Below are positions 7,254-21,660 of a DNA stretch of 64,000 nt, piece by piece. Every line of letters starts with the position of its first letter. The stretch's first letter is position 1. The notes below the pieces were generated by a model that was not told where the DNA came from, searched no databases, and saw only the letters and a program-made list of their open reading frames with translations. Source of the stretch: Methylotenera sp. GTDB taxonomy: Bacteria > Pseudomonadota > Gammaproteobacteria > Burkholderiales > Methylophilaceae. The stretch lies in NCBI GenBank assembly GCA_014378845.1, contig JACMNB010000051.1, positions 43,685-107,684 on the forward strand. The letters run 5' to 3'. The translations under genes were made by a program, and so were the position numbers.

Positions 7254-10022
7254 GTGAGTATGCAAAACTGCTTTATTTTATGCCCTACTGCGCGCTTAGT
7301 GCGCGCGATTCAAGCGGATATTGCGCGCGCACAGCTGCAATCTGGCTGTACGCAGTGGCAAAGCGCGCCTGTACACACGCTAGCTGGCTGGCTAGATAGC
7401 ATGACTGAAGCTGCAATTTTGGCAGGCAATATTGCGCAGCCACAAACCTTGCTAGCGCCGTTTAATGAGCAATTGTTGTGGGAGGAAACCATTACGCAAT
7501 CGCTTAAAAAAAATATCTTTGGTGACTTGTTTGATGTGTCTGGCCTGGCCAATGCGGCAATGGAGGCCAATAAATATATGCTCGCTTGGCATTTGCATAT
7601 ACCGCGTGAGCATCAAGCTGAAGAGTCGCGCCAATTTTTGCAATGGCAACGCGCCTTTACGCAGCGCTGCCAACAACTTAATGTGCTTGAGAGTGTGCGC
7701 TATGTTGATTGGCAGTTAGATTGCTTAGCGCAAGGTAAAATCCAGCTTGCAGAGCATATAGCCTTTGCAGGTTTTGACCAAACTGCGCCGCAAGAACAGC
7801 GTTTGCGTACCATTTTAATAACGCGCGGCGTGCAAGTGAGTGAATATTTAACAACTAGCACTAAGCCTGCAATAGCCCAGCATGTAAGCTTAGATAATAT
7901 CGATGCCGAGTGCCGCGCGGCAGTGGCTTGGGCACAGCAACAATTAGATGAAAATCCAAACGTAAAAATTGCTATAGTCGCGCCGCAACTCAGTGAAGTT
8001 CGCAATCAACTGGCTGATTTATTGGACGATATTTTTTTTCCTGCTAGCCTGCGCCCTAGCCTTGCCGATGTCGCCAAAAACTACAATTTCTCGCTCGGCA
8101 CGCCGCTGATTCAGCAGCCGATTATTCAAGCCGCGCTCAATTTGCTGCGCCTGCTTACCGCTTATCAATTGCAGCAGCCTGATATTACAACTGTTTTGCT
8201 GTCGCCATTTTGGTCTGCCAACCAGCAAGAAGCCGATGCGCGCGCCATGCTGGACGCTAAAATGCGCGACAAACTGCCGATGCAGTTATCGCTAGCGCGC
8301 TTTGTTGAATTTGCACAAAAACAGCATGACAATGGCTTAAGTATCGAGCAGCTATTTGCGCATTTAAACGCAGCTATGGCTATTTCGAGTAATCGCGCTA
8401 TGCCCTCACAATGGGCGCTAAACCTTGATTCATTACTAACCGCGCTGGGCTGGCCTGGCGAGCGTAGCATTAGTAGCCTTGAGTATCAAGCCATCAGCGC
8501 TTGGCAAAAGGCTTTACAACAATTAGCCAAATTAGATGTGCTAGGCAAAAACTTGTCGCCTAACGAAGCGGTGCTGCGTATGCAGCAAATATGCACCGCG
8601 CAAGTGTTTCAGGCTGAAACTACGTTTGAACCTAGCATCCAAATTGTTGGCATTATGGAGGCGCTCAGCACGCCAATAGACGCTCTGTGGTGCATGCAAA
8701 TGAACGACCATATTTGGCCGCCACCTGCTCGCCCCAACCCGCTGCTACCAGCGTTTATTCAACGTGCCGCCAGCGTACCAGGGGCAGATAACCATATTCA
8801 AGCCGTATTTGCGGCTAATATTCATCAGCGCTTAATACACTCGGCAAGCCACATTATTTTTTCGAGCAGTAAAACCGAAAATGAGAGCCAATTACGCGCA
8901 TCGCCACTCATTAAAGAGCTTGCAACATTAACAAATACGCTGCTCGCGGCCACGCTTGCCGAACAATTAAGCCAACTTGGCAACGCCAATTTAACACAGC
9001 TAGAAGACCATATTGCGCCACCCATTCAAGCGGGTGACCATGTGTCTGGCGGCACTGGTTTACTCAAGGCGCAAGCCATTTGCCCTGCTTGGGCATTTTA
9101 CCAATATCGACTGGGCGCAAAAGCCTTAAAAACGCCCAGCAATGGCTTAGATAATATGGATCGCGGCTCGCTTGTACACGCAGTTTTAGAGCGTTTTTGG
9201 CATCCAAATGAGCAGTTTCGACACGATGAGTTTCGACACGATGAGTTTCGTCATTTTGCTGATTTGCGCGATATGTCGGTAGATGATTTTACAAAAGCCA
9301 TCAATATCGCCATTCGCCGCACGCTGCAGGATTTTGAAGAGAAAACAAATATTGCCTCAAAAACCGTGTTAGAACTCGAGCACGAACGGCTCTACAAGCT
9401 AATAGCTGCTTGGTTGCAGCATGAAAAAGAACTCGGCGTTTCGTTTAAAATTGTCGACTGCGAAGCCGAGAAAAAAGTGTACATTTGTGGCATCGAAATC
9501 ACGCTAAAAATTGACCGCATTCAGCAATTTGAAAACGGCGCATTAGCATTTATCGATTACAAAACTGGCCAAGAACCCAAAATGAGCAGCTGGGATGAGA
9601 CTCGCATTACCGAGCCACAACTACCAACCTATGCTAGTTTTTGGGCCGCTTTTGGCGCAGATGATGCACAAATAAATAGTCAAGTATCCAGCGTGCAATT
9701 TGGCTTGGTAAAAATTGCCGACCACGCATTTATTGGCGTTTCAACTGACAATTTTGAAACCGATTCCGATAAACGTAAACCCAAATTTTTACAAGCATTT
9801 ACTGATTGGAAAAGCTTGCTAAACCACTGGAAAGACAGCATTGAGGCCATTGCGCAAGAAATTAAAATGGGCGAAGCGGCAGTAAAATTTAATCATGAAA
9901 ACGACTTAATGTACTGCGAGGTTTTGCCGCTATTGCGCCTGCCAGAGCGACAATTGCAGTTTGAAAGATTTCAAAAGGTTAGCGGGCAAAAAAGTCATCT
10001 GAAAAAAAGTGGTGTTTTATGA
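7254..10022 (+). CDS. AddB-like DNA repair protein with C-terminal PD-(D/E)XK nuclease
   Basis: 922 aa; QMNDHIWPPPARPNPLLPAFIQR and nuclease motif ALAFIDYKTGQEP; overlaps the UvrD-like gene downstream. Confidence 0.87.
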   Translation: MSMQNCFILCPTARLVRAIQADIARAQLQSGCTQWQSAPVHTLAGWLDSMTEAAILAGNIAQPQTLLAPFNEQLLWEETITQSLKKNIFGDLFDVSGLANAAMEANKYMLAWHLHIPREHQAEESRQFLQWQRAFTQRCQQLNVLESVRYVDWQLDCLAQGKIQLAEHIAFAGFDQTAPQEQRLRTILITRGVQVSEYLTTSTKPAIAQHVSLDNIDAECRAAVAWAQQQLDENPNVKIAIVAPQLSEVRNQLADLLDDIFFPASLRPSLADVAKNYNFSLGTPLIQQPIIQAALNLLRLLTAYQLQQPDITTVLLSPFWSANQQEADARAMLDAKMRDKLPMQLSLARFVEFAQKQHDNGLSIEQLFAHLNAAMAISSNRAMPSQWALNLDSLLTALGWPGERSISSLEYQAISAWQKALQQLAKLDVLGKNLSPNEAVLRMQQICTAQVFQAETTFEPSIQIVGIMEALSTPIDALWCMQMNDHIWPPPARPNPLLPAFIQRAASVPGADNHIQAVFAANIHQRLIHSASHIIFSSSKTENESQLRASPLIKELATLTNTLLAATLAEQLSQLGNANLTQLEDHIAPPIQAGDHVSGGTGLLKAQAICPAWAFYQYRLGAKALKTPSNGLDNMDRGSLVHAVLERFWHPNEQFRHDEFRHDEFRHFADLRDMSVDDFTKAINIAIRRTLQDFEEKTNIASKTVLELEHERLYKLIAAWLQHEKELGVSFKIVDCEAEKKVYICGIEITLKIDRIQQFENGALAFIDYKTGQEPKMSSWDETRITEPQLPTYASFWAAFGADDAQINSQVSSVQFGLVKIADHAFIGVSTDNFETDSDKRKPKFLQAFTDWKSLLNHWKDSIEAIAQEIKMGEAAVKFNHENDLMYCEVLPLLRLPERQLQFERFQKVSGQKSHLKKSGVL

Positions 10023-13000
10023 CGCAAGAACCATTATTACAAGCCGATGCAAGCAATCGCCTTAAAGCACTTGAACTCAGCTCGTTTATAGTCGAAGCAC
10101 CTGCAGGTGCCGGCAAAACCGAGCTTCTGACACAGCGCTTTTTAAAGCTGCTGCCCACAGTTAAACAGCCAGAAGAAATTATCGCGATTACCTTTACCAA
10201 CAAGGCCGCTGCTGAGATGCGATTGCGCATTTTAGATAGTTTAATTGCCGCAGCTGCACAAAATAAACCAACTGAACCGCATAAGAAAATCACCTATGAA
10301 ATAAGCCTAAAAGCCTTGCAACACGCTGCTACGCACGATTGGCAGCTGATTGAAAATCCATCACGTTTGCGCATTTTCACCATTGATAGCCTTTGTGCGC
10401 ATTTGGCTAGGCAAATGCCGCTAATGAGCCGCTTTGGCGCACAACCGCGCGTCACCGATAATGCCGATGCCCTTTATACGCAAGCGGCCGAGCAGACATT
10501 GGCGCTGCTAGAACACAAGGACTATAGCGAGGTGATAAAAGCGGCACTGCGCTATGTGGATAATGACGCTGCGGAGTTGACGAATTTGCTGGTGACCATG
10601 CTAGCCAAGCGCGACCAATGGTTATCGCAAGCTCAGCACGAAATTGACCCCCTGCAATTACAAAATACGTTACGTTATTTAGTCAAGCAGGCACTGCAAA
10701 CTACCGTGCACGCGGTGCCAACTGCGCTACAACACTTGCTAATGCCCATTGCACGCTTTGCAGCTGCTAACTTGTTGGCTAACGATACTGACGCTGTTGC
10801 ACCATTAATGGATTGGCAAACACCGCTAACAGCCATGCCAGAAGACCTAGCCATGTGGCGCGCACTGGCCGATTTTATGCTGACCGATAAAGGCGAACCA
10901 CGCAAAGAAAAAGGCTTAAATGTGAAGTTTGGCTTTCCGCCAACCGATGAAGGCAAGGCACAAAAACAGTCTTTAGCAGAAGTGATTGCAGCGATTGGTG
11001 ACCATGCAGCCTTGCACAGCGTGCGTGCACTGCCCAACTTAAAAGATGGGTTAAAAGATGGGTTAAAAGATGGGTTAAAAGATGGGTTAAAAGATGAGTT
11101 AAAAGATGGGTCAAAAGATGAGTTAAAAGACGATTTAAACAATGCTGCAAGCAGCTGGCAAATCATCACAACACTATCGAAGCTGCTCAATATCGCCGTG
11201 GCGCAATTGTGGCTAACATTTCAACGCGCAGGCGAGGTAGATTTTGTGGAGATTGCGCAACGCGCAACGCGTGCGCTCAGTGATAAATTGGAGGGTGATA
11301 GTTTTGGCGAACCAACTGAATTAGCATTAAAACTCGATTACCAAATTCAGCATTTATTAGTCGATGAGTTTCAAGACACCAGCCCCAGCCAAGTAGATTT
11401 ACTCAAGCAATTGACTCTGGGCTGGCAAGCCAATGACGCACGTACGCTATTTTGTGTGGGCGACCCTATGCAATCGATTTACCGCTTTCGCAAGGCTAAT
11501 GTCGGCTTGTTTATTAGCGCAGCAGCCGATGGTATTGGCGATATTTACTTAAAAAAACTTCAGTTGTATCGTAATAATCGCTCTTGCCCAGCTGTTGTCG
11601 ATTGGATTAATGCCACCTTTGCAACCATCTTCCCTACGCATGACGACGACGTGCAGGGCGCGATTGCTTACCGCCCGTTTATTGCAACAAAAACTGCCGA
11701 AAATGATGCGGGCATTACAGTTCACGCCATTATTAAGCAAACGGATGAGACCGCAGATACGGCTAGCCAGCGCGAAGCCGATGCAATTATTGACATTATT
11801 CAGCACGAGCAAACGACCAACCCACATAAAAAAATTGCCGTGTTGGTGCGCTCTAAAAAGCATTTGGCTGCGCTCGTCACCAAATTACGGCGCGAACATA
11901 CCAACATTAAATTTCAGGCAGTCGAGATTGAGGCGCTACAAGGTCGCCAAATTGTGCAAGATTTGCTCGCCCTCACCCATGCCCTGCACCACCGTGCCGA
12001 TCGTGTGCATTGGCTGGCTGTGTTACGCGCGCCGTGGTGCGGCTTAACGCTGCACGATTTGCACACGCTGGCAGGCAGCGATCACCATGCAACTATTTGG
12101 TCGTTGATGCAAAATGAAGAAATCGTTAACCAGCTTGAAGGAAAAGAACGGCTTATACACGTGCGCGATATTTTTGCAGAAGCCTTCTCCACACAAGGGC
12201 GTATGAATACTAGGCGCTGGCTACGCGGCATTTGGCTGATGCTTAACGGCACCGCCTGCCTGTGGGAGCAAGCCGATATTGCGGATGTGCAAGCTTTTTT
12301 TAGCTGTTTAGATCATCTCGACCGCAGCAACCAATTTTCGCCCGAACGCATGACAAACGAAATTACTAAGCTATTTGCGACACCAGACATCAATGGCGAA
12401 CACTGTCAAATGATGAGCATTCATAAATCCAAAGGTTTGGAGTTTGATTGCGTGATTCTGCCTGGCTTAGGAGCTACAACGGGCGGCAATAATCGCGATA
12501 AACCGCTGGTGCTGTGGGAGCAAGTGACCGTTGACGAACACACCGAATTGCTCGCCGCGCCATATATCCCTAAGGGTTTACGCAGTGATATGGTAAGCCC
12601 CTATGACTATATTGAAACGTTAGAAAATGAGCGTGACGCCAACGAAGCGGGGCGCGTGCTGTACGTGGCAGCCACGCGTGCCGAGCGAAAATTACACTTA
12701 GTAGGCGTTGCTAATCAAAACGCAAAAGGTGAAATTAAACCCACTAAAAACAGCTATTTGGATATGCTGTGGGCGGCGGTATCGCATGAATTTGAAGCAA
12801 GCGAGCTATCACCAACGCCGTCATTCTCGCGCACGCGGGAATCCATTTTGAATGACGAAATAGCCGACTTTACGCCCAATTTAATTCGCCTGCAACATTT
12901 GCAGATTCCAAGCGTTTTGCAAACCGAAATAACTTTCACAAACCAAACAATTAATCCGCAAAACGATCTAAATCAGCAAACAATACCACTCAATTTGGCT

Positions 13001-13519
13001 GCTGACGCCGGCACGCTAGCCCATTTATACATGGAAATAATAGCCAATGATGGTTTGGAGCATTGGCCTGAAAGCCGCGTCGATGCTTGCTGCCAGAGCA
13101 TACGGTTTTGGTTGCTACAAAAGGGTCATAGCAAAAACGAAGCTGAAAATCTAGCAGTTGAGCAATCAATCTCGCAGATCATTGCGGCGCTTAAAAAAAC
13201 CACCTCCAGCCCGCAAGGCTCATGGATGCTTGCGTCTAGGCCAAGCCGCCAAGCAGAATTGAGTATTACAACCATTGACGAAAATGCTGACGCGCAAGAA
13301 CAGCGAATTGATTTAACATTTATTGAAGAGTCTGAACTTGGTGAAAAAGTGCGGTGGATTATTGATTACAAATTAACTGCGGCAAATGAGAATTTAGCCA
13401 TAGCAGCAGAACTGCACAAACCACAATTGGCGAGCTATGCCAGCCTATTTTCACACGAAAATTTGTCGATTAAAACGGCGGTGTTTTTTTTGAGTTTAGG
13501 TGAATTAGTTGAGTTATAA
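10019..13519 (+). CDS. UvrD/REP-family helicase-nuclease, AddA-like
   Basis: 1166 aa; Walker A EAPAGAGKTELLTQRFL, HLLVDEFQDTSPSQ, VGDPMQSIYRFRKANV, SIHKSKGLEFDCVILPGLG, C-terminal WIIDYKL. Confidence 0.92.
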   Translation: MTQEPLLQADASNRLKALELSSFIVEAPAGAGKTELLTQRFLKLLPTVKQPEEIIAITFTNKAAAEMRLRILDSLIAAAAQNKPTEPHKKITYEISLKALQHAATHDWQLIENPSRLRIFTIDSLCAHLARQMPLMSRFGAQPRVTDNADALYTQAAEQTLALLEHKDYSEVIKAALRYVDNDAAELTNLLVTMLAKRDQWLSQAQHEIDPLQLQNTLRYLVKQALQTTVHAVPTALQHLLMPIARFAAANLLANDTDAVAPLMDWQTPLTAMPEDLAMWRALADFMLTDKGEPRKEKGLNVKFGFPPTDEGKAQKQSLAEVIAAIGDHAALHSVRALPNLKDGLKDGLKDGLKDGLKDELKDGSKDELKDDLNNAASSWQIITTLSKLLNIAVAQLWLTFQRAGEVDFVEIAQRATRALSDKLEGDSFGEPTELALKLDYQIQHLLVDEFQDTSPSQVDLLKQLTLGWQANDARTLFCVGDPMQSIYRFRKANVGLFISAAADGIGDIYLKKLQLYRNNRSCPAVVDWINATFATIFPTHDDDVQGAIAYRPFIATKTAENDAGITVHAIIKQTDETADTASQREADAIIDIIQHEQTTNPHKKIAVLVRSKKHLAALVTKLRREHTNIKFQAVEIEALQGRQIVQDLLALTHALHHRADRVHWLAVLRAPWCGLTLHDLHTLAGSDHHATIWSLMQNEEIVNQLEGKERLIHVRDIFAEAFSTQGRMNTRRWLRGIWLMLNGTACLWEQADIADVQAFFSCLDHLDRSNQFSPERMTNEITKLFATPDINGEHCQMMSIHKSKGLEFDCVILPGLGATTGGNNRDKPLVLWEQVTVDEHTELLAAPYIPKGLRSDMVSPYDYIETLENERDANEAGRVLYVAATRAERKLHLVGVANQNAKGEIKPTKNSYLDMLWAAVSHEFEASELSPTPSFSRTRESILNDEIADFTPNLIRLQHLQIPSVLQTEITFTNQTINPQNDLNQQTIPLNLAADAGTLAHLYMEIIANDGLEHWPESRVDACCQSIRFWLLQKGHSKNEAENLAVEQSISQIIAALKKTTSSPQGSWMLASRPSRQAELSITTIDENADAQEQRIDLTFIEESELGEKVRWIIDYKLTAANENLAIAAELHKPQLASYASLFSHENLSIKTAVFFLSLGELVEL

Positions 13520-14233: not shown

Positions 14234-17200
14234 TTAAACAAATTCTTTAAGCAGCGATTTCACAAACTCTACCCGATGCGCCAAATTGCCAAATTGCGCG
14301 GTCACCCGTAATTTATCAGGGCCATTCATGCGGCAGCGTCTATCGCGCTGCAATAAGCTAACCAGTTTCATGGGGTCGAGGTCTGCTTTAATATTAAATT
14401 GCAGCTGAATCGTTGCATCCGAAGCATCAATTTTAATGATGCCGAGTGGCTTGGCCATGATGCGCAAACGATGGCACGAAATGAGTGCTTCGCCCTGCTC
14501 TGGCAGCAAGCCAAACCGGTCAATTAACTCTTCTTGCAGCGTATCTAATTCGTCGTCAGTATTGGCGTTAGCAAGGCGCTTGTATAGCACCAAACGTTCG
14601 TGCACATCGGGGCAGTAATTGCTTGGTAGCAGCGCGGGTACGTGCAGATTAATTTCTGTCGTTACTCCAAGCGGCGCGTCTAAATCGGGCTCTTTGCCCG
14701 CTTTTAGCTGTTTTACGGCGTGGTTGAGCATATCAGAATACAGTTGAAAACCAATGGCTTGCATTTCGCCGCTTTGTGAATCACCCAAAAGCTCACCCGC
14801 ACCACGAATTTCTAAATCGTGCATGGCTAGATGAAACCCTGCACCTAAATCTTCGAGCAATTGAATCGCATCTAAGCGCTTTTGTGCTTGTGGCGTAATG
14901 TTGCGTTCTGGGTCAGTGAGCAAATAAGCATACGCTTGGTGATGGCTGCGGCCAACCCTTCCCCTTAGTTGGTGCAACTGCGCTAGGCCAAACATATCGG
15001 CGCGATTCATAATAATGGTGTTGGCGGTGGGCACGTCAATACCTGTTTCAATAATGGTGGTGCATAGCAAAATATTGCTACGCTGCTGATAAAAATCGCG
15101 CATTACATGTTCTAGCTCGCGCTCTCGTAATTGACCGTGCGCAATGGCAATGCGTGCCTCTGGAATGATTTTTTCGAGCTTTTCTTTTTGCACAAAAATC
15201 GTATCAACCTCGTTATGCAAAAAGTAAACCTGCCCGCCGCGTTTAAATTCGCGCATTACCGCTTCGCGAATAATACCGTCGCTATAATTGGTGTGAAAGG
15301 TTTTGATGCTGAGGCGTTTTTGCGGCGGCGTGGCGATGACGCTAAACTCGCGCAAACCTTCCATCGCCATGCTAAGCGTGCGCGGAATCGGCGTTGCAGT
15401 GAGCGTCAGCACATCAACTTCTGCCCGTAGCGCTTTCATTTGCTCTTTTTGACGCACGCCAAAGCGGTGCTCTTCATCTAAAATTGCCAAGCCTAAATTT
15501 TTAAACTTCACATCTTTTTGAATCAACCGGTGCGTGCCAATAATAATATCAATCTCGCCAGATACTAGGCCGCGTAAGGCTTCTGCAATTTCTTTAGCAC
15601 TTCTAAAGCGTGAAATTTCAGCCACTTTAATTGGCCATTCGGCAAAACGGTCGCAAAAGTTTTGATAATGCTGTTCGGCTAATAATGTCGTTGGCACTAG
15701 CACGGCGACTTGCCGCCCGCCCATTACGGCAACAAATGCGGCACGTAGCGCGACTTCAGTCTTACCAAAGCCCACATCGCCGCACACCAGTCTATCCATG
15801 GGGCGACCTGATTGCATATCTTTAATGACATTTTCAATCGCTTCTAGCTGGTCAGGCGTTTCTTCAAAAGCGAAACCTTCGCAAAATGCTTCGTAATCTT
15901 TCAAACTAAGCGTAAACGCATGACCGCGCCGCGCTGCACGCTGGGCATATAAATTCAGCAGCTCAGCCGCCGTATCGCGAATTTGTTTTAGGGCTTTTTT
16001 CTTGGCTTTTTCCCACTGGCCAGACCCTAAACGATGTAATGGCGCGCTTTCTGGTGGGCCGCCAGAGTAGCGTGAGATTAAAAATAACTGCGAAACAGGT
16101 ACATAAAGCTTGTCGTCGCCAAAATATTCCAGTAACAAAAATTCGGTTTCACCTTCGCCAAAATCAAGGTTCACTAAGCCTTTATAGCGCCCTACGCCAT
16201 GCTGCTCGTGCACGACTGGGTCTGATAAATGCAGCTCAGATAAATCTTTGAGCATACCCTCGGTATTGCGCGCTTTTTCTTTCTCACGTCTGCGCTGCTG
16301 GCGCACGGTGGCGGCGTAAAGTTCTGCTTCGGTGATGATAGCAAAGCCGTCCCCTCCCTCTTTTAGGGGTAGGGCTAGAGCCTGCCCCGTACTTGATACG
16401 GGGGTGGGGGTAACTTGCAATGTGGGGGTAACTTGCAGTGTGGGGATAGATTGTGTGTTTTTCTGATTAGATTCACCCCCATCCCCGCCTTCCCTCTGCT
16501 TGGGGGAAGGAGTGAAAACAAAGCCAGAATGCAATGGCGATACGCCCAGCATCACTTTTTCTGAAGCTTGTTCAAACTCAACCCAAGTTTCGCAAGTGCA
16601 CATATTAAAACCATGTTCAGCGAACAACTGCGCCATGGTTTCGCGGCGGCCTAAGCTTTCTGCGGTGATTAATACGCGAGAATTGCTAGATTCAATAAAG
16701 CTTTTTAGCTTGTGCAGTGGTTGCTCGGCTTTGCGTTCAATATCAAGCGCAGGCAAGCCGTTAGCAGGCGCTAATTGCGCGATGACGGTTCCGAAAGCTT
16801 GCGTTTTTGCAAAAAACTCATCTGTTTTAATGAGTAAGATTTCTGGCTTTAAAATCGGCTTTTCTGCGTCATACGCCATTAATTTATAGCGGCTATTGGC
16901 ATCAAACCAAAAACCTTGCGCAGCTTTATCAAGGTTACCGTGCAAACAAATTACCGCATCTTTATTCAGGTAATCAAATAGCGTGGCTGTTGCATCAAAA
17001 AATAAGGGCAAATACCATTCAATGCCACCGCTAGCCGTGCCTTTGCTTACATTTTTATAAATAGTAGCGCGTTGCGGATCACCTTCAAACTGCTCGCGAA
17101 AGTTGCTTCTAAACTTGGCAATCCCGTTCTCATCTAGCGGAAACTCGCGGGCAGGCAGTAATCGAATTTCTGGCACGGGGTACAGGCTGCGCTGCGTATC

Positions 17201-17788
17201 GACATCGAAGGTGCGAATCGACTCAATTTCGTCATCAAATAAATCAATACGGTATGGAAACACGCTGCCCATGGGGAATAAATCAACCAAACCCCCACGC
17301 ACACTAAATTCGCCAGGCGAGATGACTTGTGAAACATGATGGTAGCCTGCCTGCGCGCATTGGTGACGCAGGGCTTCTAAATCGAGCTTTTGATTTTTTG
17401 CGAGCATAAAAGTATGCCCTGCAAAGTAGCTAACGGGCGGTAAGCGCAATAAGGCCGTGGCAATCGGCACAATCATTACATCGCATTGGTTTTGACTGAT
17501 TTGGTACAGCGTAGCTAGCCGCTCGGAGATTAAATCGGGATGCGGTGAGAATACATCGTAAGGCAGCGTTTCCCAATCTGGCAGCAGGTTAACCGTGATA
17601 CTGGGCGCAAAATAAGGTAATTCTTCTAGCAAGCGCTGCGCTTCAAAGGCGTTAGATGTAATCACCACAAGGCACTGTTTTGTTGTTTTTAGGCGACATG
17701 AAAGTAATGCAAGAGATAAGCTATCTAAGCCATTGGCAGCATACGAAAAATGGGTTGAATGGCCTAAAGTTGGCGTTAAAACTTGCAT
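14234..17788 (-). CDS. mfd: Transcription-repair coupling factor Mfd
   Basis: 1184 aa; [59 protein letters not shown]. Confidence 0.97.
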
Positions 17789-21505: not shown

Positions 21506-21660
21506 TTACTAACTACTTTATCAACCACCTAATCCGTCATTCTCGCGAAAGCGGGAATCCATTGAAAGCTTAAAATCAAAATGGATTCCCGCTTTCGCGG
21601 GAATGACGAAAGGGGTAATCCGTTTTTATCGGCGTATATCTGCGTGTATCGGTGGCTAAA

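Follow-up and report, generated by a model that had tools for sequence, protein, structure and literature searches.

A CGTC-tagged REP unit read in frame in an AddA-like helicase-nuclease gene of Methylotenera

Analysis of a 64-kb stretch of a Methylotenera genome (the window) revealed a short palindromic repeat, a CGTC-tagged REP, lying in frame within an AddA-like helicase-nuclease gene. We consider it highly probable that this unit sits in a tolerant linker of the encoded protein and is translated neutrally there. CGTC REPs inside genes, including RPE-4 and RPE-6, are already known (Di Nocera et al. 2013, PMC3733652), and the AddA-like insertion is a new example; with it, the in-frame decoration of proteins by REPs, best known from obligate intracellular Rickettsia, extends to a free-living methylotroph lineage. 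The features concerned are listed in Table 1.

Table 1. Coordinates of genes and repeats in the window
Feature	Position	Strand	Remarks
AddB-like partner gene	7254..10022	+	TIGR03623 (probable DNA repair protein) above cut-off; PDDEXK_1
AddA/RecB-like helicase-nuclease gene	10019..13519	+	1166 aa, frame intact
CGTC-tagged REP unit inside AddA-like gene	12819..12857	+	39 bp; a probable collapsed inverted pair; reads SFSRTRESILND
mfd	14234-17788	-	about 50 extra residues at 16337-16546, missing from Methylotenera relatives
Full inverted REP pair, same CGTC family, intergenic	21536..21607	.	between two ORFs; spacer attgaaagcttaaaatcaaaat

The repeat unit and its host gene

An earlier note on this DNA had reported a 37-bp sequence, GTCATTCTCGCGCACGCGGGAATCCATTTTGAATGAC, at 12820-12856 within the AddA-like ORF, and it was found there as described, in frame and encoding residues 935-946 of an uninterrupted protein. 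The presence of a CGTC tag at both ends led us to prefer slightly wider limits, and the unit was redrawn as CGTCATTCTCGCGCACGCGGGAATCCATTTTGAATGACG, the 37-bp core with one base added per side. It begins at 12819 with an unpaired terminal tag (CGTCATTC...), which is found in the great majority of the genome's copies, followed by an 8-bp stem that starts with AT and encloses a 4-base loop (ATTCTCGC-GCAC-GCGGGAAT, with one T.G wobble) and by a tail that fits CCA (GGGAATCCA). Further downstream is TTTTGAAT, with which the spacer begins in several other REP copies. Tag, AT-first stem of 8 bp, loop of 4 bases and CCA tail together are what defines CGTC-tagged REPs in the literature (Di Nocera et al. 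2013, PMC3733652), and the last three place the unit in family CGTC-1. The likeness to the intergenic repeat at 21536-21607 that had been pointed out earlier was confirmed, this being a full inverted pair of the same family. Folded as RNA, the 39-nt unit gave -11.9 kcal/mol (z -1.9 versus shuffles), a hairpin only modestly more stable than shuffled sequences; the upper stem pairs in the same way, with GCAC as the loop, and the outer part pairs instead with the GACG end.

The host protein has Pfam matches above cut-off to UvrD-helicase (aa 19-501), UvrD_C (516-894) and PDDEXK_1 (993-1148), and the combination of a UvrD helicase with a PD-(D/E)XK nuclease domain, next to an AddB-like gene, is that of AddA; the protein is presumably active. 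We use the label AddA-like because the AddA equivalog cut-offs of NCBIfam were not passed (TIGR02784, 186 bits versus a cut-off of 860.75). The REP-encoded residues fall in the gap between the second and third Pfam domains, and in an AlphaFold model of residues 781-1166 (386 aa) they correspond to model residues 155-166, inside a segment (150-173) with pLDDT below 50, while the nuclease part of the same model lies mostly above 90. The Pfam limits, the low pLDDT and the variability of 82 homologous linkers agree with the description of this region, in the earlier note, as a low-conservation linker between helicase and nuclease. Mis-assembly of the segment is unlikely, as both flanks run on in one homologous reading frame, and plasmid records gave no blastn match to the segment. 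Elsewhere in the gene, LKDG units are encoded at window positions 11039-11130 by 7.7 tandem copies of a 12-bp sequence, TTAAAAGATGGG; a short version is present in the closest relative and none in the others.

Distribution of the repeat and its known counterparts

The genome was searched with a 26-base core pattern at two or fewer mismatches, with the pattern read backwards as the control. Three matches were found in the window, where shuffles gave an expectation of none, and 72 in the window's genome (2.26 Mb in 79 contigs), where the control gave 0. Merging matches less than 200 bp apart yielded 54 loci, and a looser match identified 29 inverted pairs. Only 4 of the 54 loci lie inside conserved genes versus about 47 expected at a coding fraction of 0.88, taken from the window; copies at gene N-termini were left out of the genic count because translation can begin downstream of them. 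Genes hold far fewer REPs than expected, through depletion or avoidance, and the genome-wide count proposed in the earlier note favored its reading, the copies being many and mostly intergenic. At one mismatch or fewer, the window's own genome (G000) has 52 copies, G009 has 41, G007 has 10, and the other genomes searched have 0-4; the nearest relatives of the window's genome are Methylotenera and other Methylophilaceae.

Family CGTC-1 includes Neisseria dRS3 and RPE-6 of Rickettsia conorii, with RPE-4 placed in family 4, and the same study described in-gene units in both REP superfamilies and CGTC REPs without a linked transposase (PMC3733652). The Methylotenera repeats resemble this family in tag, stem, loop and tail, in being multicopy and often arranged as inverted pairs, and in lacking an associated, dedicated transposase gene; their placement is also similar, mainly intergenic with some copies in frame in genes. 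A difference is the form of the AddA-like copy, apparently a collapsed pair that is CGTC-tagged at each end, and Methylotenera is not mentioned by name in the main text of PMC3733652.

Like the Rickettsia palindromic elements (RPEs), the Methylotenera REPs are palindromic repeats lying in frame in unrelated genes (addA, prmC, hrpA and a rluB-like gene) and read as peptides. The RPE analogy drawn in the earlier note turned out to be closer than was claimed, since R. conorii RPE-4 and RPE-6 belong to the CGTC-tagged REP superfamily (PMC3733652). RPEs are, however, about 150 bp long and nearly half of them are genic (PMC10969869), whereas the Methylotenera unit is 39 bp with few genic loci, and the host lineage is not Rickettsia. 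REPIN/RAYT systems (Bertels and Rainey 2011, PMC3116915) likewise consist of inverted pairs of short palindromes scattered through the genome, but they are of the GTAG type and tied to a RAYT gene, while the Methylotenera CGTC REPs have no linked RAYT.

Relatives of the AddA-like protein and other interrupted genes

No peptide of the SFSRTRESILND type was present in 29 aligned AddA-like homologs, fuzzy matching across 110 addA-bearing loci found the REP in its own gene and in none of the 109 others, and in 82 linkers that were read out a repeat-like peptide appeared only in the AddA-like protein of the window. Between two conserved motifs the linker measures 109-155 aa in the 82 homologs (median 117) and 119 aa in the window's protein, so the insertion kept the protein within the length range of its family. 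The linker DNA exceeds that of the closest relative, G003, by 9 bp (3 codons) and that of the next relatives by 21 bp, and the net gain over the inferred ancestral spacing is about 7 codons. The 3' end of the unit, AATGACG, is present at the same position in G003, and judging from this alignment the final AATGACG, or part of the outer stem, may belong to the host and not to the repeat. The linker is hypervariable and for this reason offers no clean empty site. As read from these alignments, the insertion is a replacement of some linker sequence and not a clean 12-aa addition: the segment of about 12 aa that the earlier note expected homologs to lack was indeed absent from all those examined, and the net change is only +3 or about +7 codons. 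The possibility that the closest relative holds a degenerate REP was dismissed, since the linker sequence of that relative (TCAGTTG..GAAAACGCAA) has its ancestral counterpart in G008 (L034).

The four genic REP loci of the window's genome are in addA, prmC, hrpA and a rluB-like gene, names that were assigned by sequence recognition and alignment to relatives. In prmC, a REP pair lies between the two domains in G000 (L068 / L174) and in G009 (L235), and is absent in eight other Methylotenera relatives that were aligned. The 20-base spacer of this pair, TTGAATTTAAACCAAAAAAT, is identical in the two genomes and found in no other listed pair, which makes a single shared or transferred insertion more likely; independent insertions in G000 and G009 were set aside on the same grounds. 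The REP loops differ between the two copies, each matching the common types of its own genome, and the pattern is suggestive of one insertion, common to both, with later homogenisation of the REP cores. A further repeat-like peptide (VRQAHHER..PVRPELVEG) was observed at the same interdomain place in prmC of G000.

A REP lies in the rluB-like gene of G000, G007 and G010; the gene has a decayed one in G012 and none in G011, G006, G005 and G002. HrpA of G000 (L254) contains two repeat-derived insertions, and the hrpA loop that holds the REP in G000 is occupied in G007 (L255) by an unrelated repeat, PSPTRGEG..PSPLKGEG. A second repeat family, CCCC..GGGGGAAGG..GGGATGGGGGT, with 18 genome matches and 0 for the control, is found in hrpA and in the mfd gene of the window, where a unit at about 16475-16506, within the insert listed in Table 1, belongs to it.

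Origin of the insertion and alternative explanations

In the account that we favor, a CGTC-tagged REP would have inserted into the addA-like gene in a single Methylotenera lineage, and the unit is probably the collapsed form of an inverted REP pair, its inner part deleted between two GAAT direct repeats; a deletion between the GAAT of the spacer and the GAAT at the end of the pair's second REP would give exactly the form of the AddA-like copy. Five further collapsed CGTC..GACG hairpins were found in the genome, each 28 bp with both tags, one of them with the same CAC loop. The landing site would have been the low-conservation linker joining the UvrD C-terminal helicase domain to the PD-(D/E)XK nuclease domain, and the unit, translated as a short disordered stretch, may survive there through the tolerance of the linker. 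The reading frame was kept because the repeat, in the frame used, is free of stops and the linker length changed by a net multiple of three. Genic insertions that break genes would be removed by selection, or avoided by targeting. Most probably the REP in the AddA-like linker is neutral, without a function of its own.

The hypervariability of the linker in both sequence and length, and the AATGACG held in common with the nearest relative, are what would be expected if the segment were ordinary AddA linker that resembles the repeat by chance or through convergent base composition. This can hardly be the case: the 26-base match has zero mismatches at the specified positions where shuffles predict none at all, the repeat-specific spacer TTTTGAAT is present, a similar peptide is found in no relative, and the match counts exclude a chance likeness. 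An adaptive role, in which the peptide or an mRNA hairpin alters AddAB activity or expression, for example toward more mutation or recombination, is considerably less far-fetched but still very unlikely. Repair and RNA-processing genes do recur among those interrupted here (addA, hrpA, rluB and, by the other repeat family, mfd), and the same sites are filled in several species, namely prmC in G000 and G009, and rluB in G000, G007 and G010, with the decayed form in G012. In other bacteria, CGTC REPs have been reported inside recB, RNA helicase and pseudouridine synthase genes, and a bias to repair and RNA genes, counting recB, uvr genes, RNA helicases and tRNA pseudouridine synthases, prompted speculation about mutator effects (Di Nocera et al. 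2013, PMC3733652). The overlap with that list is striking, but the long linkers of large, modular proteins may be enough to explain it, as such proteins would tolerate insertions on that account alone; moreover, the addA copy occurs in only one examined species, its linker is disordered, and occupancy among relatives is patchy.

With respect to how the element moved, a RAYT (Y1) transposase that recognizes CGTC REPs, as occurs with GTAG REPs and REPINs, is a doubtful agent. The genome has four Y1_Tnp matches, two of them with internal stops, but no REP copy was found in the ~1.5-kb flanks of any of the four, G009 has its 41 REPs and no detectable Y1 gene, and the same lack of association was noted by Di Nocera et al. 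(2013, PMC3733652). Somewhat less likely again is the broader proposal that several unrelated palindromic families repeatedly enter the interdomain loops of AddA/RecB, Mfd, HrpA, RluB and PrmC across Methylotenera, through a preference of the repeats, or of the machinery that mobilizes them, for this small set of nucleic-acid enzymes or through selection on the added peptides; if this were true, insertion of repeats would be a way in which protein linkers of free-living bacteria evolve again and again.

Several species, and unrelated repeat families, can share the same target genes and loops, and REP insertions such as that in the AddA-like gene are natural experiments on the tolerance of linkers to added peptides. 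They also carry a warning for annotation, in that the peptides SFPRKRES, MDSRLRGND and WIPACAGMT are repeat-derived and not conserved motifs. A REP that reads WIPACAGMT or WIPAYAGMT was also observed in G000 (L005) and G009 (L229), at the N-terminal signal region of proteins that resemble each other, where the ATG within the REP end GAATGAC could act as a start codon.
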